This document shows positions 3,817 to 22,627 of a stretch of DNA of 25,599 nucleotides, piece by piece. The position numbers and the translations under genes were made by a program. Source of the DNA: a virus. Positions within the stretch are counted from its first letter, which is position 1; the number at the start of each line of letters is the position of its first letter. The stretch covers positions 1 through 25,599 of IMG/VR virus record IMGVR_UViG_3300031521_000330. One strand, 5' to 3'. The notes below the pieces were generated by a model, which did not search any database, was not told the DNA's origin, and worked only from the letters and a program-made list of their open reading frames with translations.

Positions 3817-4890
3817 TTATCTAATTCTCCTGGCATTTATTATACCATAAACTCCCATATCAGTAATTAAACTTGATACTGTCACACTTACACTAAGATA
3901 TACAGTAGTATTTACACTTACATTAATTTGTCTTGAAGGCAAAGAGGATGTTAATTGACTATCAGGAACTGCTATTAAAGGGGTACATGTAACTAAAGGA
4001 TTATTACTATCAGGTACATTATCACTTGAAGTAAGTAAATCTGATAATATATATCCTGTATTAGAAGATGGATTTAAAACACCAATATTACCTAATACAT
4101 TCCAATCTCCAGGAGTTAATACTAAACTAATAACATGAATTGGTATAGAAGTACTACCATTAAAAGTTATTTTATGTGCTGCAGTTATAGATGCTGTTAA
4201 ATATTCTCCTACATTTCCAGCGGTTGCAACAGATGCATCAGTTACTCCTATTATTCCTTTAGAATCTGCAAATAATAAATTCTGATTTAATGTTACTTTG
4301 TTATCATATAAATTAAAATATTTAGTACCAAAAGTACTAAAATCGGTTCCTAAATTATCTTCAGAAGTTATAGGATAGGAGGAAATTAAAGCACTACCTG
4401 CTCCATCATATAATGTTGTATTACTTCCATTTCCCACTAATAATGGTATATTATTAATGCTATTTAGTGTAGTACTAGTATAATTATGAATTAACCCCAT
4501 AGTTCCATGACTATCATACAAAGTAAATCCATCTGGATCACATGATAATACTGGTGTACTATTATAACCATAAAAAACTTGAGACCAGGTACTTCCAACA
4601 TAAACAGAACCACCATCAGTTCTAGTAATTGTATCTGTAACTAATCCATTAGTAAATGTTTTTACACCATTTATAGTTTGTGTAGATATAAGATCTACAA
4701 AACTTTTAGTAGTACTGCCCGTACCTCCATTTGCTATAGATAAAGGAAGTATTAAATCTGTACCTCCATTTAAAGTTAACCATCCATTACTACTAAATGT
4801 TTTTAGTACTGGATTTCCTGTGGAAGTATCTTCCCAAACACAATCTGTTGAAGGTTCTAGTAAAGAAGTAATTATTTGTTTTTTTGCCAT
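3817..4890 (-). CDS. Tail fibre / receptor-binding protein, shorter paralogue
   Basis: A 357-aa Ser/Thr/Gly/Asn-rich, beta-type protein carries the phage fibre motif LPLSIANGGTGSTTKSF (about residues 46-62), followed by a segment like TQTINGVKTFTNGL. Its C-terminal ~150 residues are related to those of the preceding fibre gene: both have a GxVG(E/Q)xL element, then LTxGDW(N/E)V, and both end in A(R/K)RIR. This shared domain is probably the receptor-binding or trimerising tip. The gene lies immediately downstream of the 622-aa fibre and before the holin. Two fibres with a common tip but different shafts point to duplication and diversification. An accessory fibre or tip attached to the first fibre is also possible. 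Confidence 0.75.
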   Translation of the reverse strand: MAKKQIITSLLEPSTDCVWEDTSTGNPVLKTFSSNGWLTLNGGTDLILPLSIANGGTGSTTKSFVDLISTQTINGVKTFTNGLVTDTITRTDGGSVYVGSTWSQVFYGYNSTPVLSCDPDGFTLYDSHGTMGLIHNYTSTTLNSINNIPLLVGNGSNTTLYDGAGSALISSYPITSEDNLGTDFSTFGTKYFNLYDNKVTLNQNLLFADSKGIIGVTDASVATAGNVGEYLTASITAAHKITFNGSTSIPIHVISLVLTPGDWNVLGNIGVLNPSSNTGYILSDLLTSSDNVPDSNNPLVTCTPLIAVPDSQLTSSLPSRQINVSVNTTVYLSVSVTVSSLITDMGVYGIINARRIR

Positions 4891-4907
4891 GGTTTTATCT
4901 TTTTAAA

Positions 4908-6776
4908 TTAACGAATTCTTTTTGCGTGTACTCTCCCAGTTGCTGAAACTCCGGTAGTATATGCTGCAACAACTAAATAAACAGGTGTTGTTGCTGAAAC
5001 TGTTATTTCCTTTGGAAGCGTAGTTCCTGAAAATCCATAAGCTGTGCTATTATCAGCCACAACTGCATCGCTTAAATCATTCACAATAGCACCGCTTGTA
5101 GTGCTAATGCTTATTCTCGCTGCACCTGCTGCCGTAGATGTTATATAACCAAGGCCTGTAACTTCCCAATCGCCTGCAGTTAAAGAAAGCGTTACAACAT
5201 TTGATTGTGAACCGGAAGAAATAGACACTGTACTCGTGGTAGTTGCTTCTAGTGTTTGGCCTACATATCCACCTGAAGCACTACTACCGTCGGTAACACC
5301 TACAAGTCCATTTGTAGGTGATAAATACAAATTTCTCCATGTTAGCAAACTGGTTCCTAAATCTCTAGTGTTATTTAGAGTAGGTGAAAATGCCGCACTA
5401 TTCCAGTTATAACGAGATGATCCTGCCGATTGAAGATACCCATTGGAGGATGCTGTATTTACATATAAATCAGTAGATGTCCCACTAGAAATTATATTTG
5501 AATATGTAGTAGCAGCAGTTAATGTAGGTGCACCAATAGTATAAGTATTAGTTGTTGAAAAAGTAATACTTTTAGTAGTTATAGTATTACCAAATGTAGT
5601 AGTACCATCTGCTAAAGTAGATATAGCAAATACTGCTCCAGTTGTACCTATTCTAGCTCCTATATTATAAGGTTGATATGCTAAACCATCAAAAGCTAAA
5701 GTTCTTGCACCATAAGTTGCAGATACATATTCTGCAATATAAGTTCCTACTCCTGAAGGTAAAGTACCACTATCTCCATAAAATATAGAACCCTTAGCAA
5801 AAGCTTTAGCTCCTAAAGTTGTTTGTGTAGTAGTTAAATCTAAAAAATTTTTAGTAGAAGATCCTGTACCACCATTTTCAACAAGTACTACACCAGTTAC
5901 ATTACTTGCAGTACCTGTAGTATTTTGATTCCATGTTGGAATTGTAGCATTTAATGATGTACTGTTTTGACGTGTTAAAGTTAATAATAAAGGAGTTAAA
6001 GCGGCACTAATTATACTAATTTGATAAGAAGTATTCCAATTTGTTGAATTATCAGTTAAATAAGCAATAGTTCCCGAAGTACTTGATACTATTCCAGTAC
6101 CTGATAAAGTTGCTTGTGCCCCTAAAGATGCTCTAGCATTAGTTATATTAGTTGCTCCAGTACCTCCATTTAATACAGATAAAGGTAAAGTGAAAGAGTC
6201 TAATTTGGTTTTATCTGTTGCAGACATTAATCCTGGATTAGAATCAGTTGCTACAGATATTAAATCATTTCCAAAATTAATCCAAGTACCATTAGCCCAT
6301 CCAAATATTACATTAGATTTAACTTCACCGTCACTACCAGTAAAACTAACTACATTATACAGATAACCATTTTTAAAATTAGTAGTATCTAATGCTAATA
6401 ATGAAGTATAATTTGCAACACTCCCCATTAATTGAAAACTACTTATAGTATAGTTTTTAAGAAATGTTTGCAATGCTTCTGCCCCTACTGTTACTTTATT
6501 ATTATAAACATCAGTTAAATTAAATGTATCTATTGTAGGGGCATTAAGAAAAAAATCTAGTAATGCTAGTAAAGTAGTTTTAGTATAAGCAGTTGTACCT
6601 GCCTCATCATATAAAATAGATACTAAATTTGAATAATTAAAATTATTTTGAATTATAGTATATGTAATACCATCATCAGTAATTCTAAATTCAGTATTAC
6701 TTGGTGATAATATAAGAGACTTGTCACCTGTGTCAAAGATAAATGCTCCATTATCTGTTTGATAAAATCTTGTCAT
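4908..6776 (-). CDS. Tail fibre protein, longer paralogue, with GC-shifted C-terminal domain
   Basis: A 622-aa beta-rich, Ser/Thr/Ala-rich fibre has two copies of the NGGTG fibre motif (LPLSVLNGGTGATN near residue 200 and VLVENGGTGSSTKNF near 300). The N-terminus (MTRFYQTDNGAFIFDTGD) may attach it to the tail. The C-terminal region (about residues 440-622) contains GYVGQTLEAT, LTAGDWEVTG and the AKRIR end shared with the next gene. Its coding DNA (4908 to about 5460) is visibly richer in G+C: by count 25/60 in 4921-4980 and in 5401-5460, against 16/60 in 5521-5580. This suggests the tip domain was acquired by recombination. It sits between the collar protein and the second fibre, and its job is host recognition at the tail end. 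Confidence 0.78.
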   Translation of the reverse strand: MTRFYQTDNGAFIFDTGDKSLILSPSNTEFRITDDGITYTIIQNNFNYSNLVSILYDEAGTTAYTKTTLLALLDFFLNAPTIDTFNLTDVYNNKVTVGAEALQTFLKNYTISSFQLMGSVANYTSLLALDTTNFKNGYLYNVVSFTGSDGEVKSNVIFGWANGTWINFGNDLISVATDSNPGLMSATDKTKLDSFTLPLSVLNGGTGATNITNARASLGAQATLSGTGIVSSTSGTIAYLTDNSTNWNTSYQISIISAALTPLLLTLTRQNSTSLNATIPTWNQNTTGTASNVTGVVLVENGGTGSSTKNFLDLTTTQTTLGAKAFAKGSIFYGDSGTLPSGVGTYIAEYVSATYGARTLAFDGLAYQPYNIGARIGTTGAVFAISTLADGTTTFGNTITTKSITFSTTNTYTIGAPTLTAATTYSNIISSGTSTDLYVNTASSNGYLQSAGSSRYNWNSAAFSPTLNNTRDLGTSLLTWRNLYLSPTNGLVGVTDGSSASGGYVGQTLEATTTSTVSISSGSQSNVVTLSLTAGDWEVTGLGYITSTAAGAARISISTTSGAIVNDLSDAVVADNSTAYGFSGTTLPKEITVSATTPVYLVVAAYTTGVSATGRVHAKRIR

Positions 6777-6796
6777 TTGTTTAATTATTTCTATTA

Positions 6797-8119
6797 TTAA
6801 TATTTTATTACGTAATAAACTGCAGCATAAGGTGGCATTATATCAAAGGCATTTGTATAATTATTAAAAGAAACTCCATCATATATTGAAGAACTTGTAA
6901 GCCCTTGATAATTATTACTAGCACCTGATATTTCAACTCTAGATTGATTTTTACGTTCATTTATATAAGCACCATACGTAAATACAGATGTATCAGCATC
7001 AGAACTTTCTATACCATCTAAATGTTGATGAGGAGGTATATTATGTATATTAAGTGTTTGAGTTGTTCTACCACCATAAGAAGTGCTATTATATAAATCA
7101 CCTGCTCCAAATAAAGTTTTATTTATATAGTTAGGTAAAGAAAAAGTAGTACCATTATCTTCATCAGTGCCACCTCCAAAAGTAATACCTATAATAGCAA
7201 ATAGTGCTGCATAAGTAGTTCTATCAAGACTTGCACCATTACATAATAAATAACCATTTGGTGGAGTTGGCATAGGATACATTTTTATAAAACCTACGTC
7301 AGAACTTTCAATTATAGTAATAACTTTAGTCTCTAATTCATTAATAGCGCCTACAACTTCTTTAGATGTAGTAGTTAAAGTAGAACATAATAATTTACTT
7401 TCAATAGTACTTTTAGTTTCATCTCCAGTATTAGTATTAGATGTATTATTTAATTTTAATTTATCCTCTTTATTTAATCTACCATCAATAAGAGTTGTTG
7501 CTAAAGGTATATAGTTAGAATCAATCATATGCCATCCATCAATATCATTATATTGATAAGTATAACCTGTATCTTTAACATTCACAGTCCAATATTGGAC
7601 TGGGATAGGATAAGTTGTTGTTATATCAGCAAATGTAGCAACTTCTGATTTCCAAATAGCACCTTTTAATGCTGTAGTTACATTAGTCTGTAATGTAGAT
7701 ATATCTGAATCAATTCGTATAACATTAGAATCTAAATCACTGGCAACATCACTTATTGCTAATTGTAAAGTATGATCTCCATTAATTCTATTAGTAATTT
7801 CTGTTGCTAGATTTGTATTTAATATTGATATATCTGAATCAATTCTTACAACATCAGCATGTAATTCAGTATAATTATATGTTATATTTGTATTAATATC
7901 TATAATCTCATTATCAATATTTGTAAGGTGTGTGTTAATAATACTTATATCATTAAGAATAATATCAAATTCATCATTCCAAAAATCAACCCATATTCCT
8001 CTATCTTGATTATAAGCTCTAAGATAATATTGATCAGGATTTTCAATCTTTAACCATAAACTGTGTTTATCAATTTCTGGTAAAGATACTACTGTTTGAG
8101 GTCTTTCTCCTGTGATCAT
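6797..8119 (-). CDS. Tail collar-domain fibre protein
   Basis: A 440-aa protein comes in three parts. The N-terminal head (about 1-50) is rich in aromatics and probably docks to the tail. A long heptad-like region (50-160) repeats I(D/N)xxI and DSDIS units and probably forms a trimeric coiled-coil shaft. The C-terminal phage tail collar domain (about 275-440) carries GFIKMYPMPTPPNGYLLCNG, then TTYAALFAIIG, FSLPNY and the family's typical ending MPPYAAVYYVIKY. Collar-domain proteins form short fibres or spikes. The start overlaps the portal stop by 4 bases (ATGA), so it is probably co-translated with the portal. The domain identification is firm; its exact place in this virion is inferred. Confidence 0.85.
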   Translation of the reverse strand: MITGERPQTVVSLPEIDKHSLWLKIENPDQYYLRAYNQDRGIWVDFWNDEFDIILNDISIINTHLTNIDNEIIDINTNITYNYTELHADVVRIDSDISILNTNLATEITNRINGDHTLQLAISDVASDLDSNVIRIDSDISTLQTNVTTALKGAIWKSEVATFADITTTYPIPVQYWTVNVKDTGYTYQYNDIDGWHMIDSNYIPLATTLIDGRLNKEDKLKLNNTSNTNTGDETKSTIESKLLCSTLTTTSKEVVGAINELETKVITIIESSDVGFIKMYPMPTPPNGYLLCNGASLDRTTYAALFAIIGITFGGGTDEDNGTTFSLPNYINKTLFGAGDLYNSTSYGGRTTQTLNIHNIPPHQHLDGIESSDADTSVFTYGAYINERKNQSRVEISGASNNYQGLTSSSIYDGVSFNNYTNAFDIMPPYAAVYYVIKY

Positions 8120-10470
8120 TTAGTACTTTTATTTAATTGTTGTTTTTTTAAAGCTACATTATCTGCATGTTTTTTCTCTTCAAAAGATAGTTTACTTGTA
8201 TCTAAGGCTAATCTAGCTTCAAATTGCCTAACTTTTTCATCTAAATCTATTTCAGAACCTTCATCAGTAGATTTAGATTGTGCTGATAGTTCAGCAATTA
8301 AAACCTTTGTACTATTGTCTCTAATATTATGTTGTTCTAATAAATCTCTATCTTTTTCTTTTTGTTCTAATTGCATTTGCAATTGTTGTTGTTGACTATC
8401 TCTTTCTGATTGAGCTTCTTGTGCTTTTTGCTTTTGTATATTTTTTTCATCATCTTCAATAGTTCTTTGTATTTCAGCAATAGAAGATGTACTATAAATT
8501 TTCATAATAGTAGAAAAAGAAAGTAAACTATTCTGTAGTGCTGCTTGAGCTAATGAATCTAATTTACCTGACAATTCTTGCGTAGCAGGTGAATTATCTA
8601 CAACAATACCATAATCACACTCTGAAAATTCATCCCCATCAATATCCATTATTTTAGAAGAATAGTCAGATAATATATATTGGAACTTTTTACTTCTCCC
8701 TTTTAATGCTATTTTAGATGTTTCTAATAAACATTCTAATACTCTTTTCTTAGTATTATCATGTATAGAAAATAACCATTCTGTAATATAAGAAGATTGT
8801 AATGTAGATCTTTCTACACCTCCAACAGTTTCTCTATTAGCTACTTGCCCTTCTCTTTGTCTTGTTACTCCAACACATTCTTTCATTTCTTGTTTTATAT
8901 TTTCAAGAAGTAAAATATGTTGCTGTATGAAATTACCAGTTTCAGCATCAATAACTCCAGATGATTGATTATTCATCATGCCTGAAAGTTTGCCTGTAGC
9001 TGCTCCTATATTTCCTTCTTTAAAAGAATCTACTACAGCTATTTTATTTATCTTAGCATAATGTAACCATTTATCAACTTCCCATCCTTTAGGAACCATT
9101 GCCAAATCCATCTTTATTATTTTACCCCAATTAGATGCAATTGCTTTATTTAATCTATCATGTATAGCATTGTATAAATAATTGAAAGGTTTCATCATAT
9201 CAACTAGAGAATATGGCTTTCTATCATTCAAGTTATATATAGTTCCTATAATTCCAAAATGACATTTAGAAGGGTTTGATAGTCTATTATATTGTACTAT
9301 TCTAGGTCGCATATTAACATAAATATCTTTTCCTATTTGTGTACCTTCCCAAGCCTCATTAATCCAGAAGGTTTGCTCTTCTTCTCCTTTTGCTTCATCA
9401 CATATATAAGTTTCAGGATAAAAATGATACTCTTCTTCTCCTGTATTAGTATCATAAGATTTTACTTTTTTAATCTTTCTTTTACTTTTCCAATACACTC
9501 TAAGAACTCTTAAATTACCATAATTATCATAGTATCTATTTCTAGAATAATTAAGACCTGTAAATAATCCATATACATCTACAAAAGGGTTTCCATAATC
9601 CATACCTTGATCTGCAATATTAAAAAAAGCATCTCTTTCATCTATGTTTTCCATAGCATCGGTATGACCGAGGGTAGGTAAAGTTTCTAAAGAAGTTATA
9701 TCTTTAGAAGATAAACTTTCATAAAATGTATCTATAATTTTACCAGGGTTCCAATAATCTTCTAATATAATTATATCTGCATCTTCAACTTTATTTGAAA
9801 ATCCAGATTGAAATACTCTGATATTAAGTGTATTAACTCTTTCCACAATAGGTTCTCCAGAAACAATATCACATTGATATATTTCTTCTCCTACTGTCAT
9901 ACAATCCATAAAACCACCATTGAATTTTATAGGTAAATCTAACTCCTTAACATAATGGGTTAAAATACAGTTAGCTCTAATTTCTCTTAAATCTTGCCAT
10001 TCATATACGAATTTATTATTTAATTCTTCTAATTGGCTATTGAAAGCATTCTCGTCCTTTGCTTCAGAAGATATTACAGCTTTTAACTCTTCAAAAAGTT
10101 TTGCTTTTTTATTATTTTCAATTTCTGATATAGCATTAGGATTAGTTATAGTAGCCCTAAAATCAAATCTTCTTTTAAATTCTTCACCTCTTAATACATT
10201 AAGAACAGAATTCATAATTGGATAATGCTGAATATTTTCAGGAATATAACTAGCTTTTACATTATCTGGATTAAGAACTAGACTCATATCTTCTAAATAT
10301 AATTTACCATTCAGAAGATCATAATTAATTTTTTTATGTAGTATAGACTTTCTTACAAGATTGTTATTGTAGAAAGTTTTATTTGAAGCCCACTCTAAAT
10401 GCTTTTTTCTCCAATCTTTTGTCTTGGATCTAAAAGATAATTGTTGGGATGGAAAAGAATCAAAGTTCAT
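8116..10470 (-). CDS. Portal protein, crAss-like
   Basis: A 784-aa protein forms the dodecameric ring through which DNA enters and leaves the head and to which the terminase docks. The N-terminal part (FNSFP-like start, then DWRKKHLEWASNKTFYNNNL) and the middle (VYWKSKRKIKKVKSY; IQYNRLSNPSK-like segment; MKPFNYLYNAIHDRLNKAIA; VTRQREGQVANRETVGGVER) match the large portal proteins of crAss-like and P22-like phages as I know them. The last ~110 residues are a Gln/Glu/Lys-rich coiled coil, as in barrel-bearing portals. It follows TerL with an 83-base gap holding a promoter and ends in TGA overlapping the collar gene. Length is in the usual range for this group. Confidence 0.87.
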   Translation of the reverse strand: MNFDSFPSQQLSFRSKTKDWRKKHLEWASNKTFYNNNLVRKSILHKKINYDLLNGKLYLEDMSLVLNPDNVKASYIPENIQHYPIMNSVLNVLRGEEFKRRFDFRATITNPNAISEIENNKKAKLFEELKAVISSEAKDENAFNSQLEELNNKFVYEWQDLREIRANCILTHYVKELDLPIKFNGGFMDCMTVGEEIYQCDIVSGEPIVERVNTLNIRVFQSGFSNKVEDADIIILEDYWNPGKIIDTFYESLSSKDITSLETLPTLGHTDAMENIDERDAFFNIADQGMDYGNPFVDVYGLFTGLNYSRNRYYDNYGNLRVLRVYWKSKRKIKKVKSYDTNTGEEEYHFYPETYICDEAKGEEEQTFWINEAWEGTQIGKDIYVNMRPRIVQYNRLSNPSKCHFGIIGTIYNLNDRKPYSLVDMMKPFNYLYNAIHDRLNKAIASNWGKIIKMDLAMVPKGWEVDKWLHYAKINKIAVVDSFKEGNIGAATGKLSGMMNNQSSGVIDAETGNFIQQHILLLENIKQEMKECVGVTRQREGQVANRETVGGVERSTLQSSYITEWLFSIHDNTKKRVLECLLETSKIALKGRSKKFQYILSDYSSKIMDIDGDEFSECDYGIVVDNSPATQELSGKLDSLAQAALQNSLLSFSTIMKIYSTSSIAEIQRTIEDDEKNIQKQKAQEAQSERDSQQQQLQMQLEQKEKDRDLLEQHNIRDNSTKVLIAELSAQSKSTDEGSEIDLDEKVRQFEARLALDTSKLSFEEKKHADNVALKKQQLNKSTK

Positions 10471-10553: not shown

Positions 10554-13500
10554 CTAATTATCTATTACCCAATTATTACTTTTAGGTTCTTTATAATTAA
10601 CATTAAAGAAATCATCATTACCTAAATAATTATTATCAACTATTTCTCTAGTATTAAAAGAATTATCTCCCATTAGTCTTAATTTATCTTCTCTAATAAG
10701 CATTAACATTGCTAAAGCATCATGTCTATCATAGTTACCATCACTACTCCAAAGTGTTAATTCTTTCAATAAGGCTCTGTTCTTAATAGTAAATAATCTT
10801 GATATAGATATTTCTTCATCTTCACCATTATTATTTTTAGTAATAATTGTAGGTTTTAACAAATAATCTCTAATAGCCCTTCTTCCATAAGCCTTTATAG
10901 GAGCAGTAGAAATAGTTCCTTTAGATTTATTTCCAATACCAACTTTTATCATTTCTTTATCCTTAAGAAATTCTAAAGTATCAGAAAGTAGATATAAACA
11001 ATTGTGTTTAGAAAAATAAGCAAACAAACCTTTTTTATTGTTTTCATAATTAGCTTCAGCATTATAAAATAATAATGCTTTTCTACAATTTTCATAAAAC
11101 TCATCAGCAAATTGTGGTCTTCCAGTGTATTCAAATACTATTTCATCTGTCCATAAATCTAATATTAGTAATGAACCTAAAGAAAGTGTTTCTGATTCAT
11201 CATCGTCATATGGATCGCAGCCAGAAATATATCTACCTCTTAATACATTACCATTACTATCTGTTTTAGGAAGTTCATAAATCTCTATACAGCCAGTAAG
11301 TTTATTATCTTTATGTGGAAATTCCCTAATAGGTTTTACATCATAAGAAGGTTCATATATAACCTTACCATTTTTAAAAGTTAAATTACCAATTAATACA
11401 TCATCTAAACTTTTAGGATTAAAATCAATCTCATTTATTCTATCTGTTAATTCAGATACAGGATAAATAGTTGATTCTCTCTTCATTATAGCCTCTTGTA
11501 TAGTAATAGGATTTTCAGCCTTATTTCTTGATAGTGATGTAGGATCAGAAGAGTTATATTTTAATTTATATCTATTGTTTAATACTTCTAGTAAAGCACT
11601 TATAACATCTGAATTACCATCTTTATCATAATGGCCTTTTCTACTTAAATAAGCACCATAAAAAAATATAGTTTTTTGTTTTCCTTGAGAATTTTTATCA
11701 TAGACATTTGGTACTGCATATACATTATAACCAATAGGATTATAAATCATTTCCATAGCTCCAGAAAAACTACTTCCTTCACTACCACCTGTAGCAATAC
11801 CAAGAGCTTGACCAAAAGCTATATCCCCTTCTTGTACAGAAGGTAAATTTACATTCCAAATATCCATAAATTTACGGAAGGCACCATATTCTTCATAAAT
11901 AAATATATTTGCCCTTTTACCTCTACTTTTATCTGCATCATCTCCTGCTGCAACTCCCATAGTAGTATTTTCAGTTCCTTTATTAGTATTAGAAGAACTG
12001 TCAATATATCCCATAGTCCATTGCATATCAGATAATGAACTTTTTAATCTTTGAGAAGGAAATTGTGTGTGTTCAGCACAAAAATCTATACAAGTTGCAA
12101 ACTTATTTAATGTACCATCTTTAATTAATTTTTCTTTATCTTGAGCAGTAACAATTCCAATAGTTTTATTATTAGAAAATTCATTATCTCCACATACAAA
12201 TAATCTAGCTAAAATAGATGCTGTACTATACGAATTATGTGTTGTTATAAAATCTCCTATTAAGTAACAATGTGATTCATTATCTACTGTTACACACTTA
12301 GCTTTTTCTTTATGTGAATATTCTATATTTATAATTCTAGATTGTATTTTATTACTTCTTGAGTATCCTGATTTAAATTCTGTTAGTTTATTATTCTTTC
12401 TATTCAGTTTAAATATTTTATCATTTGTAAATATAGATAATATATAAGTATCTAAACAAGGTATATAGACACCTTCTTTTTTATAACCTGCTTTTTGTTT
12501 TGTATATCTGCAATTATATCCTAAACTTCTTGCTATAAAAGCAATATCATCAATCATTCTTTTAGAAGATAAACCTATAGTAGGTATACCAGTATCCCCC
12601 ACATACCCATCAGAATCCATTAAACCTTTTAATAATTCTAGTCTGATTTCTTTAGAATTAAATTTATATTCATCTGGTATAAATTTCCCATCTGATTTAG
12701 TAAAGAATAAACCGTATTCTTTAAGTATAGTTGAGAATTTATCTATCTCTATACCATAACCCATCTTAGTATTCCATTTCTTTATCTTATATGGTATATA
12801 AGTCTTGTAAGTTTCCATATCAGATTCTTCAGAAGTAAAATATACATTATTTACCCCACTACCTCTAAAACTACCATCTCCTAATAATAATCCAAATGTG
12901 TAAGGATCTACTTTAGTAGATTGTATTGAAAATTCTACACTATTATTTATGGGTATTCCATATTTAAATTCTACTCCATTAGGATTTCTATCTGATATTT
13001 TTCTAGTACCTTTATAATTACATAATAACTCTTTAGTACTTTTAATAGTATATTTTTCTTTAAAACCATGTTGATATACTTTCCACAAGTGATCTTCTGA
13101 TGCATATACAATTCTACCATCTCTAGTAGTTATCTTATATATATCTGTAAAATCATCAAATGGAATATCTATTACTTTTGTTGTTTTACCATCATCTCCA
13201 AATAATAAATCACCAACTTTAATACTACCCCAAGTTTTTATTCCATCTGGAGTATATACATGTTGAGAGTATGGATGAGCTTTTGAACGTCCTCTTGCTG
13301 CAATTTGTAATCCATGCTGTCCCCCTTTAAAATCATTATAAATACCACCATTTCTAGCTTGATCTATATAATGAAACCATAAATATACACCATCCCAAAC
13401 TTCTGGAAAATCTACAATACGATCTGCTATTTTGGTACCTTCTCTAACTTTAGATTGTATTATAGGCATGTAATTAAGATAAAAATACATTTGTCCTGTA

Positions 13501-13874
13501 ATCCATTCCCCATCAGAAGGTCTTATCATTCCATGCCATATTCTATCTATCTCTTGTAATTGCCATTTACCAAAATCACTATTAGGATTAGGATTAGGAC
13601 GTAATTTAGTTATTACTCCATATTTTCTATAATAGTTACCAGTAGGTCTAAAGTATTCCATATCTTCTAATATATGTGGGTTACATACATCTACAATAAT
13701 CTTTTCTTTATCATCTCTTTGTAAATCTTTAGCATATTTTCTAATAGGAGAAATAAACCTCTTTATATACTCTACATTATTAACAAGATCAATAAATTCA
13801 TCAGATATTTCTTTAGGTAAAGAATCTAATAATTCATCTGTTATTTTAGTTTGATATTTATTCACTTGTACCAT
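10554..13874 (-). CDS. terL: Large terminase subunit (TerL) interrupted by an intein
   Basis: This is the DNA-packaging motor: an N-terminal ATPase and a C-terminal RNase H-fold nuclease that cuts concatemers. The frame is 1106 aa. Removing the intein (residues 199-547) leaves a 757-aa TerL. The P-loop region AARGRSK is split from SYSTASILA by the intein. Walker B with its catalytic pair is at 656-662 (NIFIYEE). Nuclease acidic motifs are at GCDPYDDD (D887) and YDRHDALAML (H1051, D1052). Both halves are in frame and every motif is intact, so the protein should be active only after splicing. The start overlaps the preceding 109-aa gene by 17 bases, and the portal follows. Confidence in TerL is very high. 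Confidence 0.95.
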   Translation of the reverse strand: MVQVNKYQTKITDELLDSLPKEISDEFIDLVNNVEYIKRFISPIRKYAKDLQRDDKEKIIVDVCNPHILEDMEYFRPTGNYYRKYGVITKLRPNPNPNSDFGKWQLQEIDRIWHGMIRPSDGEWITGQMYFYLNYMPIIQSKVREGTKIADRIVDFPEVWDGVYLWFHYIDQARNGGIYNDFKGGQHGLQIAARGRSKAHPYSQHVYTPDGIKTWGSIKVGDLLFGDDGKTTKVIDIPFDDFTDIYKITTRDGRIVYASEDHLWKVYQHGFKEKYTIKSTKELLCNYKGTRKISDRNPNGVEFKYGIPINNSVEFSIQSTKVDPYTFGLLLGDGSFRGSGVNNVYFTSEESDMETYKTYIPYKIKKWNTKMGYGIEIDKFSTILKEYGLFFTKSDGKFIPDEYKFNSKEIRLELLKGLMDSDGYVGDTGIPTIGLSSKRMIDDIAFIARSLGYNCRYTKQKAGYKKEGVYIPCLDTYILSIFTNDKIFKLNRKNNKLTEFKSGYSRSNKIQSRIINIEYSHKEKAKCVTVDNESHCYLIGDFITTHNSYSTASILARLFVCGDNEFSNNKTIGIVTAQDKEKLIKDGTLNKFATCIDFCAEHTQFPSQRLKSSLSDMQWTMGYIDSSSNTNKGTENTTMGVAAGDDADKSRGKRANIFIYEEYGAFRKFMDIWNVNLPSVQEGDIAFGQALGIATGGSEGSSFSGAMEMIYNPIGYNVYAVPNVYDKNSQGKQKTIFFYGAYLSRKGHYDKDGNSDVISALLEVLNNRYKLKYNSSDPTSLSRNKAENPITIQEAIMKRESTIYPVSELTDRINEIDFNPKSLDDVLIGNLTFKNGKVIYEPSYDVKPIREFPHKDNKLTGCIEIYELPKTDSNGNVLRGRYISGCDPYDDDESETLSLGSLLILDLWTDEIVFEYTGRPQFADEFYENCRKALLFYNAEANYENNKKGLFAYFSKHNCLYLLSDTLEFLKDKEMIKVGIGNKSKGTISTAPIKAYGRRAIRDYLLKPTIITKNNNGEDEEISISRLFTIKNRALLKELTLWSSDGNYDRHDALAMLMLIREDKLRLMGDNSFNTREIVDNNYLGNDDFFNVNYKEPKSNNWVIDN
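12234..13280 (-). mobile_element. Class 3-type intein with LAGLIDADG homing endonuclease inside TerL
   Basis: A 349-residue in-frame protein intron sits in the TerL P-loop, between RGRSK and SYSTAS. The N-terminal splicing block starts AHPYSQHVYTPDG and runs on to IKVGDLLFGDDG, so residue 1 is Ala, not Cys. Block B is ASEDHLW (H64 and W66, intein numbering). Block F is KCVTVDNESHCYL (C329). The end is FITTHN followed by Ser. Trp at B:12, Cys at F:4 and Thr before the terminal His-Asn are the 'WCT' signature of class 3 inteins, in which the internal Cys replaces Cys1 as first nucleophile. The endonuclease lies between the splicing halves: GLLLGDGSF (D135) and LLKGLMDSDGYV (D224) are the two LAGLIDADG helices with acidic residues intact. 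It should splice itself out and can home into intein-free terL genes. Confidence 0.9.
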
Positions 13875-17216: not shown

Positions 17217-17247
17217 CAAAGATATGTAAAATATATTTAATATCAAA
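17217..17247 (-). promoter_or_regulatory. Consensus Bacteroidota-type promoter
   Basis: On the minus strand TTTG (17247-17244), a 19-nt spacer and TATCTTTG (17224-17217) match the consensus TTTG-N19-21-TAnnTTTG at every defined position. It stands in the 70-base gap between the HExxH gene and the Dps-like gene. The downstream box is embedded in TTTACATATCTTTG, shared with the promoters at 18200 and 1831. Confidence 0.8.
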
Positions 17248-18199: not shown

Positions 18200-18231
18200 C
18201 AAAGATATGTAATTAAAATATAATAAACAAA
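18200..18231 (-). promoter_or_regulatory. Consensus Bacteroidota-type promoter
   Basis: On the minus strand TTTG (18231-18228), a 20-nt spacer and TATCTTTG (18207-18200) match the consensus perfectly. The downstream box has the same TTACATATCTTTG context as the promoter at 17217. It would start transcription about 15 nt before the 46-aa gene. Confidence 0.8.
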
Positions 18232-18711: not shown

Positions 18712-19173
18712 TTAATTATTAAATTTAAATGCTTTTTTATATCTATACTTATTATTCCAAATATTCTTTATAGTAGTGTTAGAATAAGTTTCTTCATTGG
18801 TTAATCTTAAAATATTAAAACCTCTACTTCTCAACATATTTTCTCTAACTATATCTTTTTCTAGTTGTGTTTTAGTAAAATGATATAAACCATCAATCTC
18901 TACAATCAGATTATATTTAGGAATGTAAAAATCAACAATATAAAAAAATTTTTCTTTTTTTGTTTTATAATCTCTTATAGAAATTATTTGTTGAAATTTA
19001 AAATCAACTCCAACAGAAATTAAATAAGAAGCAAAGTATTTTTCTGAATTTGTAGTTTTATCTATTAAACTCTGTTTAAAATCTTCTGCTATTTCATTGG
19101 TAGATTTAAAAGCAAAACCTTTAAAACTTTTTATACTTAAATCTACTTTATTATTATTTTTCTTGCTTGACAT
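18712..19173 (-). CDS. DUF559/Vsr-like PD-(D/E)XK endonuclease
   Basis: A 153-aa protein has the DUF559 layout. A helical part contains NSEKYFASYLISVGVDF (residues 42-58). The nuclease core follows: YIVDFYIPKYNLIVEIDGLYH (D81, then E92-x-D94 and H98; read as VDFYIPKYNLIVEIDG plus LYH), then RENMLRSRGFNILRLTNEE (111-129). The D...ExD pattern is the active site of this branch of PD-(D/E)XK enzymes, related to very-short-patch-repair nucleases. Stand-alone copies in phages are often selfish homing enzymes. It lies 75 bases after the end of the structured-RNA candidate and may share its transcript by read-through. Its own promoter is not apparent. Function on DNA is likely; the target is unknown. 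Confidence 0.75.
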   Translation of the reverse strand: MSSKKNNNKVDLSIKSFKGFAFKSTNEIAEDFKQSLIDKTTNSEKYFASYLISVGVDFKFQQIISIRDYKTKKEKFFYIVDFYIPKYNLIVEIDGLYHFTKTQLEKDIVRENMLRSRGFNILRLTNEETYSNTTIKNIWNNKYRYKKAFKFNN

Positions 19174-19246
19174 AGTATTCTCATTCTCATTATATAATTA
19201 AATATATATTAAGTTAAATATTAAATTAATTATTATCTTAATTTAA

Positions 19247-19274
19247 GAGTAAAAGAAACCTACACCAGTAGGTT
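19247..19274 (-). terminator. Intrinsic terminator of the structured RNA
   Basis: On the minus strand AACCTAC-TGGT-GTAGGTT forms a perfect 7-bp stem with a 4-nt loop, followed by TCTTTTACT. It sits 83 bases before the nuclease gene and fits as the 3' end of the RNA starting near 19549. Confidence 0.65.
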
Positions 19275-19549
19275 ACTCAATTCCTCTGATCTAGCAGTTA
19301 TATTTCATATACGGATATTTTCCTTAAACTTATAATAACTAATTAGCCTAAACTATTCTACTCCCTAAGTGTTTCATAAGACCCGTTTATATATTATTGG
19401 TTCTCATTCTTGTTATCTCATGGGGACTTTACCTGTACCACTTTCACACTACTCCTGGTGTCCCAATCTTACTAATCCTTACTTAGGGCATATTGTTAAT
19501 ATTACTATTAACTCAACCTCCTTAAATGGTAGATATTTAATTTTTAGTG
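19247..19549 (-). ncRNA. Candidate ~300-nt structured RNA in the divergent spacer
   Basis: This stretch on the minus strand is richer in G+C than its surroundings, has no plausible gene, and lies between a perfect promoter (19553-19584) and a terminator hairpin (19257-19274). Visible pairings in the minus-strand RNA are: CCCTAAGT (19488-19481) with ACTTAGGG (19370-19363), an 8-bp stem closing a 110-nt domain. Inside it, GGGAC (19464-19460) pairs with GTCCC (19427-19423), extended by ACC with GGT. In a second domain CTA-x3-AGTTAT (19346-19335) pairs with ATAACT-x2-TAG (19301-19291) around a small GGA/TCC hairpin. I do not recognise it as tmRNA, RNase P RNA, 6S or a group I/II intron. It could also be a long regulatory leader of the downstream nuclease gene. 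Confidence 0.6.
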
Positions 19550-19552
19550 TTG

Positions 19553-19584
19553 CAAATTTAGGTAAAAAAAATAACATATGCAAA
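19553..19584 (-). promoter_or_regulatory. Consensus Bacteroidota-type promoter for the structured RNA
   Basis: On the minus strand TTTG (19584-19581), a 20-nt spacer and TAAATTTG (19560-19553) match the consensus at every defined position. A run of eight T lies in the spacer. Transcription would start near 19547-19550. It is the most upstream promoter of the whole leftward gene arm. Confidence 0.75.
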
Positions 19585-19912
19585 TGTAGTATTAAAATAA
19601 TATGTTAAATAAAGTTAAAGTTATATCATATAAATGAATACTACCCCCTCTCCCCCTCTTCTTTTTTTTATTTTTAAGTCAAACTATTGATAATTAGAAA
19701 TTTATAATATAAAAAATTTTTAAAAAATATTTTTTTTTGAGTTTATAAAAGATGGGTAAGTGTAAGATAAGCACCTAAAACCTCCCCCCTTTCTTGGCCA
19801 TTGGGGTATATCCCCATGGGTTGTTAATTATTTTAACACTTTTAAAAATGGTGATTTTTAATTTTAACACTTTTTTTAACACTTATTTATTCATTATTTA
19901 AATTTTATTATT
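19585..19912. other. Divergent spacer: polypyrimidine tract, GC hairpin, repeats
   Basis: There is no gene in these 328 bases. It holds a C/T-only-like tract (19642-19673, CCCCCTCTCCCCCTCTTC then T's) and a very A/T-rich segment with long A and T runs (19700-19738). A C-rich stretch (19782-19790) follows. At 19798-19819 is a GC-rich hairpin (CCAT-GGGG, loop TATAT, CCCC-ATGG, one bulged T), and then three short direct repeats. This mix of DNA-unwinding-type A/T sequence, strand asymmetry and repeats at a divergent transcription point could be a replication origin or the promoter region of the rightward arm. No TTTG/TAnnTTTG promoter is seen on the plus strand here. Confidence 0.5.
19831..19883 (+). 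repeat. Three direct repeats of TTTTAACACT
   Basis: Copies lie at 19831-19840, 19862-19871 and 19874-19883, 31 and 12 bases apart, ending 30 bases before the ATG of the 95-aa gene. They could be operator or iteron-type protein-binding sites. Such short A/T-rich repeats can also arise by chance in this sequence. Confidence 0.55.
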
Positions 19913-22542: not shown

Positions 22543-22627
22543 GCCTTAGTGGTGGAATGGTAGACACAAAGGACTTAAAATCCTTCAGTCAGAAATGGCT
22601 GTGCAGGTTCAACTCCTGTCTAAGGTA
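22543..22627 (+). tRNA. tRNA-Leu (anticodon UAA)
   Basis: This 85-nt class II tRNA has acceptor arm GCCTTAG with CTAAGGT (first pair G-U) and discriminator A at 22627, D-arm region GTGGTGGAATGGTAGAC, and anticodon stem AAGGA/TCCTT with loop CTTAAAA, giving UAA (22576-22578). A long variable arm (CAGTCAGAAATGGCTG) and T-arm CAGG-TTCAACT-CCTG complete it. The long variable arm and UAA anticodon identify leucine. CCA is not encoded. It reads UUA, a very frequent codon in this A/T-rich genome, and so probably boosts phage translation. Confidence 0.95.

Follow-up and report, generated by a model that had tools for sequence, protein, structure and literature searches.

Leader RNAs are already known in phages. 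Processive antitermination is mediated by put RNA in phage HK022 and by EAR RNA in Bacillus; both are leaders just behind the promoter of a long operon, act in cis on RNA polymerase and do so independently of the first gene. The crAss-like phages are among the most abundant human gut viruses, and the control of their late programme is poorly understood. ROOL and GOLLD are large structured phage RNAs with pseudoknots, often located near tRNA islands, and their function is not known (PMC12286853). A literature search (preprints and most subscription journals lay outside it) returned no work on structured or non-coding RNAs of crAss-like phages, and the main text of a survey of human-microbiome RNAs does not mention crAss (PMC8040213).

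The window, that is, the whole stretch of 25.6 kb analysed here, is an IMG/VR virus record of a crAss-like phage. Its portal protein is 60–62% identical to the portals of Steigviridae such as cr106_1, tikkala and crAss001. Two gene arms diverge at ≈ 19.6–19.9 kb, and the minus-strand arm carries virion genes (portal, 8116–10470; tail proteins, 3817–8119). At the head of this arm, a sequence-only reading had named a promoter, an 8-bp stem, a GGGAC/GTCCC helix, a second domain and a final hairpin. All of these are present on the minus strand where it had placed them, and the sequence is locally GC-richer, as it had said (0.27–0.36 within the element versus 0.17–0.24 in both flanks). The features are as follows.

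19553–19584, minus: promoter of Bacteroidota type, TTTG-N20-TAAATTTG, seen as a pattern in the sequence; TAnnTTTG is kept in homologues
19489–19552, minus: 5' extension from promoter to P1a with a small hairpin (TTAATAGTAATATTAA); length variable among homologues
19481–19488, minus: 5' strand of P1a, CCCTAAGT; the helix covaries among homologues
19467–19471, minus: 5' strand of P1b, TAAGA; from model alignment and covariation
19460–19464, minus: 5' strand of P2, GGGAC; covaries, with all four Watson-Crick pair types
19437–19459, minus: hairpin P3, ACC...GGT with a GTGAAA loop; aligned to the model of the second form (see below)
19427–19436, minus: conserved tract ACAGGTAAAG leading from P3 to P2; from comparison of homologues
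19423–19427, minus: 3' strand of P2, GTCCC; from covariation
19407–19411, minus: 5' strand of the pseudoknot, AAGAA; compensated variants in homologues
19382–19419, minus: near-invariant core GAGATAACAAGAATGAGAACCAATAATATATAAACGGG; from comparison of homologues
19377–19381, minus: 3' strand of P1b, TCTTA; from model alignment and covariation
19363–19370, minus: 3' strand of P1a, ACTTAGGG; the helix covaries among homologues
19291–19346, minus: hairpin A of the 3' domain (CTAATTAGTTAT/ATAACTGCTAG); its pairs covary in homologues
19257–19274, minus: hairpin B of the 3' domain, AACCTACTGGTGTAGGTT; two of three modelled pairs covary
19253–19257, minus: 3' strand of the pseudoknot, TTCTT; compensated variants; the T-run of the earlier terminator reading
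18712–19173, minus: first gene after the RNA, a DUF559/Vsr-like endonuclease of 153 aa (PF04480, 4e-13)

Single-sequence folding was uninformative (z = −0.07 and +0.40): the folding energy of the element equalled that of shuffled sequences (z = −0.07). The promoter pattern occurred three times in the window (1.6 expected), which is not significant by itself. Since neither the energy nor the promoter pattern went beyond chance alone, a comparison across homologues was required. Two further TTTG-N17-21-TAnnTTTG matches lie downstream of the RNA unit in the same direction (18200–18231 and 17217–17247, minus).

A blastn search with the element gave short interior matches, outside annotated genes, in tikkala and cr85_1; cr106_1 and bajarodcaudo virus were added next. 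The core pattern GATAAN{5,18}RACYAATARTATATAAMCG was present in 30 IMG/VR contigs. Using the covariance models R1 and R2, we aligned 38 copies, two of them from bacterial MAG contigs. The carriers are cultured and metagenomic Steigviridae: Kehishuvirus 'tikkala', cr85_1, cr106_1, bajarodcaudo virus and ≈ 30 IMG/VR contigs. R1, searched over contigs with portal relatives, also found L094, which is without the exact core. The pattern matches L186–L227 were mostly due to chance; only five passed the model, and one of these (L209) is the same contig as L094. The copies were selected by the core pattern, so the invariance of the core is partly an artefact; the core was recovered with looser patterns too (L094, L195), and covariation is not a selection effect because the helices were outside the search pattern. 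The homologues measure 167–247 nt on a model of 199–201 positions, each genome has one significant copy, and the near-invariant unpaired core is kept across phages whose portals are only ≈ 50–60% identical. A good copy (L161 5571–5750, E 8e-22) lies < 150 bases from the end of a 61.9-kb Bacteroidales MAG contig; this contig also encodes a Clp-type ATPase and could be phage or host.

The consensus order is P1a (8–9 bp), an internal loop, P1b (5–7 bp), P2 (5 bp) and P3, followed by P4 in most copies, the unpaired core, two hairpins and AGGTCTCTT. P3 is GCC/GGC in the consensus and ACC/GGT in the window, where it corresponds to GCC...GGC plus P4 of most homologues. The window version of hairpin A exceeds those of the homologues in length. 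In 22 sequences, 84% of the cells were paired versus 58% in shuffles, and 208 pair cells were doubly changed versus 77; all slid controls were far lower. For a tree-aware null, we used a procedure of our own (FastTree, Fitch reconstruction, substitutions re-placed along branches, G-test with APC, 40 null alignments). Strong covariation in homologues was borne out by this test, which is not R-scape: 33 of the 36 proposed base pairs covaried beyond the null at E ≤ 0.05. Further signals were an extra P1a pair (8–143) and columns 72–124/125, which join the ASAGG tract to ACGS; the variable S base of the ACAGGTAAAG tract covaries with the S of ACGS (columns 72–124). As regards conserved protein coding across the region, the outcome favoured an RNA. 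On comparative evidence far beyond chance, the structured RNA is real.

The pseudoknot is invisible to single-sequence folding. In its common form, AAGAG just 3' of GATAAC pairs with CTCTT after AGGT. The variants are AAGAA/TTCTT (window, L160), AAGGA/TCCTT (L094), AAGCA/TGCTT (L024, L033), AAGGG/CCCTT (L030) and GAGAG/CTCTC (L020, L026, L031). At least four pairs can form in 33 of 33 copies tested. Variant 3' strands matched their own partner in 8 of 8 cases and other partners in 0 of 248, and the observed number of matches was reached by none of 100,000 permutations. This comparison does not support the "perfect terminator" of the earlier reading: the T-run serves as the 3' strand of the pseudoknot, where it covaries with the core, and 32 of 38 copies are without a terminator-like hairpin in the stretch scanned. 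From the alignments, the window hairpin and T-run are probably not a terminator, and the element is best described as an mRNA leader that may undergo processing, not as an established free-standing transcript.

A TAnnTTTG element lies 8–77 nt upstream of the RNA in 36 of 38 homologues. This agrees with the proposal that the RNA has its own host-type promoter (TTTG-N20-TAAATTTG at 19584–19553 in the window) and is the first element of the late arm. No second promoter was found within 300 nt downstream in 35 of 38 copies; in tikkala and cr106_1, further promoters precede the tRNAs. The first ORF mostly begins 35–220 nt downstream of the RNA, and the first gene is unrelated between copies: a DUF559 endonuclease (window, L010, L020, L027, L030, L035), a PI-PLC (L002, L011), a virion-like gene (L014, L016, L025, L028), an exonuclease (L013, L036), a GroEL-like chaperonin (L094, gene at about 1137–2699) or, in the remaining loci, other kinds. 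The suggested link to the adjoining nuclease gene is incidental, and we rejected the endonuclease as the partner of the RNA, since it comes first at only 6 of 38 loci. tRNA islands lie near the RNA in cr85_1, cr106_1, tikkala, L012, L016, L018 and L023; none were found near it in L008, L020 and L026 or in the same arm of the window. The link to tRNA islands holds for some copies and not for others, which places the RNA with the late-arm leader rather than with the tRNAs. Because the promoter is just upstream and the first gene varies, the RNA, as judged from the sequences, belongs to the late arm as its structured 5' leader and not to one gene.

Some observations on the neighbouring genes are given here. 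The genes after the RNA in L007 and L009 read through TAG, and L007, L009 and L018 have tRNAs with anticodon CTA; TAG recoding of the late genes of these three is probable. In L002 (MT774390), the start of the annotated first gene (400–1086) overlaps the 3' end of the RNA (184–430), and an ATG at ≈ 508 fits better. Beside the portal gene of the window, an ORF of 1106 aa (10554–13874, minus) is probably a terminase with an intein, because a homing-endonuclease domain (PF05204) lies inside it at residues 405–494.

A second, diverged form occupies the same slot in crAss001, cr111, cr112, cr128 and the IMG/VR genomes G009–G012, G022 and G023, and TAnnTTTG precedes it in cr111, G009–G012, G022 and G023. 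Up to the first transcribed bases, the DNA of crAss001 matches that of tikkala at 97% identity; the stretch after this differs, and from the first gene on the identity is 90%. The crAss001 leader is conserved (98.6–100%) in cr112 and 25 PhiCrAssBcn phages and is 79% identical to cr128 over 87 nt. By inspection, the second form has the order P1a-P1b-P2-P3, an NASAGGnTAAA tract and compensated P2 helices (AGCAC/GTGCT, AGCCT/AGGCT, GAGAC/GTCTC, TGAGA/TCTCA, CCCC/GGGG). It shares with the first form the slot, the promoter type, the order of helices and the ASAGGnTAAA and GRGATWA tracts, but it is without the AACTAATAATATATAAACG core and has another 3' domain. The first-form model detected nothing in crAss001, cr112 and cr128, and a sequence-only profile of the second form did not find the first. 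The structure-aware model R3, built from the second form alone, found the first form at weak E-values (0.02–0.07) and at the exact place: its top match in the window is 19490–19413 (minus), in the expected register (E 0.024), and its best match in L094 is also on the RNA. We dropped the view of the crAss001 leader as an unrelated RNA because R3 finds the window RNA in register. Homology of the two forms is probable on these model matches; the E-values are modest, and it is the agreement in place that carries weight. The minus-strand gene annotated as crAss001_2 (L163 279–680) overlaps both the leader promoter and a frame on the plus strand (≈ 287–588) that is 93% identical in tikkala; this annotation is likely to be wrong.

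The complete records of DAC15, cr126 and frurule contain neither form; they keep the promoter, but their leader is only some tens of bases long. Neither form was found in the complete records of cr108_1, cr116_1 and Dulem virus 41, nor in those of cr50_1 and cr4_1, crAss-like phages of another family, and the R3 match in phi14:2 was at chance level only. Absence from some relatives indicates that the RNA is common in Steigviridae and not obligatory. A phi29-like packaging RNA was rejected, given that frurule, cr126 and DAC15 have ≈ 60% identical portals but not the RNA. A Y RNA with a TROVE partner was rejected for lack of co-occurrence: 13 first-form genomes gave one clear TROVE protein (cr106_1) and one below the cut-off. 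The protein is also found in cr111, crAss001 and cr112, all carriers of the second form.

Rfam 15 at the gathering threshold gave only a tRNA (22543–22627) in the whole window. There was no match at E ≤ 10 on 19160–19700 and no plausible match on the RNA at seven other loci (E ≤ 1), consistent with the earlier exclusion of tmRNA, RNase P, 6S and self-splicing introns. That the RNA is of an unrecognised kind is upheld by 38 homologues with covarying helices and no Rfam match; within Rfam and the literature searched, its sequence and fold point to a new class. A match resembling a type III hammerhead ribozyme (42.4 bits, E 2e-6, just below the gathering score) was seen at L021:17–75 (minus). With ROOL and GOLLD the RNA has in common a structured phage RNA and a pseudoknot; tRNA islands lie near some of its copies and not near others. 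It differs in being ≈ 200–240 nt rather than ≈ 660 and > 800 nt (no homologue reaches 600 nt), in being tied to a promoter and not to tRNAs, and in matching no Rfam model. With put and EAR it has in common the place behind the promoter and the irrelevance of the first gene; a cis action on polymerase is here only proposed. Its length exceeds that of put, its pseudoknotted core is its own, and the likeness seen is one of position rather than of sequence or structure.

By analogy with put and EAR, we tentatively favour a leader acting in cis to modify host RNA polymerase, a reading that we place slightly ahead of a processed, trans-acting RNA. Host RNA polymerase would start at the TAnnTTTG promoter and transcribe the leader first. 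P1, P2 and P3 would fold, and the pseudoknot would close once the AGGTnnCTT strand emerges. The folded leader would then act in cis on the same polymerase, directly or via a host factor reading the near-invariant unpaired tracts, and the polymerase would pass later pause or termination sites of the long late arm. Possibly, the RNA is also cut off and persists. The leader position speaks for an effect on the entire transcript, and the invariant unpaired tracts speak for a conserved partner in the host; the varying first genes argue against gene-specific control. The scarcity of terminators, the single copy per genome and the exchange of forms between phages also favour a cis-acting leader, as does the host-RNA-polymerase dependence ascribed to middle and late genes in crAss001 (PMC8375218). 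Against it, DAC15, cr126 and frurule have similar late arms with the short leader only, which means that the function of the RNA is not obligatory. Moreover, given the additional late-arm promoters downstream (18231 and 17247 in the window), a single antitermination site may be insufficient for all of the arm.

Somewhat less probable, yet a serious contender, is an RNA cut from the late transcript that is stable and binds a conserved host machine (the ribosome, RNA polymerase or another) late in infection, a mode of action also suspected for ROOL and GOLLD. The near-invariant core in phages with such diverged portals, the compact pseudoknotted fold and the behaviour of the leader as an interchangeable cassette (crAss001 versus tikkala) would suit such an RNA, as would the location of some copies just upstream of tRNA islands, as for ROOL and GOLLD (PMC12286853). 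However, no processing site was identified, most copies are without a terminator, and neither the same arm of the window nor the surroundings of several other copies contain tRNA islands. Antisense action on phage mRNAs was rejected as no exceptionally long complement to the core was seen in three carrier phage genomes: outside the RNA's own locus, the longest one was no better than for shuffled cores; a 16-nt core match in cr111 is same-sense core sequence within a gene and not a complement.

We consider it unlikely that the RNA is a gene-specific 5' UTR element (riboswitch, translational operator or mRNA-stability element) serving the first gene. The spacing to the first ORF is UTR-like, but the first genes (endonuclease, PI-PLC, GroEL-like, exonuclease, virion-like and others) are unrelated. 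The RNA may instead be a stability element that protects the whole mRNA.

The proposal of the sequence-only reading, a free-standing sRNA ending at an intrinsic terminator, now appears very unlikely. In the window, hairpin B directly precedes the pseudoknot 3' strand and is followed by TCTTTT, and similar hairpins are found at the same place in L011, L016, L161 and L094; yet most copies show no terminator in the stretch scanned, and the T-run is conserved in its capacity to pair. Least credible of all is a self-splicing or mobile element, such as the remnant of a group I-like intron with its homing endonuclease: its pseudoknot joins a long-range helix with a downstream helix in a P1/pseudoknot topology resembling P3/P7 of group I introns, its presence is patchy and endonucleases follow 6 of 38 copies, but neither an intron model match (E ≤ 10 in the window, E ≤ 1 at the seven other loci) nor an interrupted gene or exon pair was found, and its place is fixed behind a promoter within an untranslated leader.

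A broader proposal, on which we are evenly divided, is that these RNAs make up a new superfamily of phage leaders with a pseudoknot, in at least two diverged forms, and would capture a host machine, either RNA polymerase or the ribosome, at the late switch. Because a diverged form is present in crAss001, which is cultured and for which infection-time RNA-seq is published (PMC8375218), the abundance, ends and effect of the RNA are open to direct checking. A conserved RNA that heads the late arm and is missing from Rfam offers a concrete entry point to the late programme, and its fold, shared by many crAss-like phages, suggests that this programme includes a so far unrecognised step based on RNA. 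Action on host RNA polymerase would make it an RNA-based late switch of Bacteroidota phages; excision and action in trans would place it beside ROOL and GOLLD as a further class of large phage RNA.
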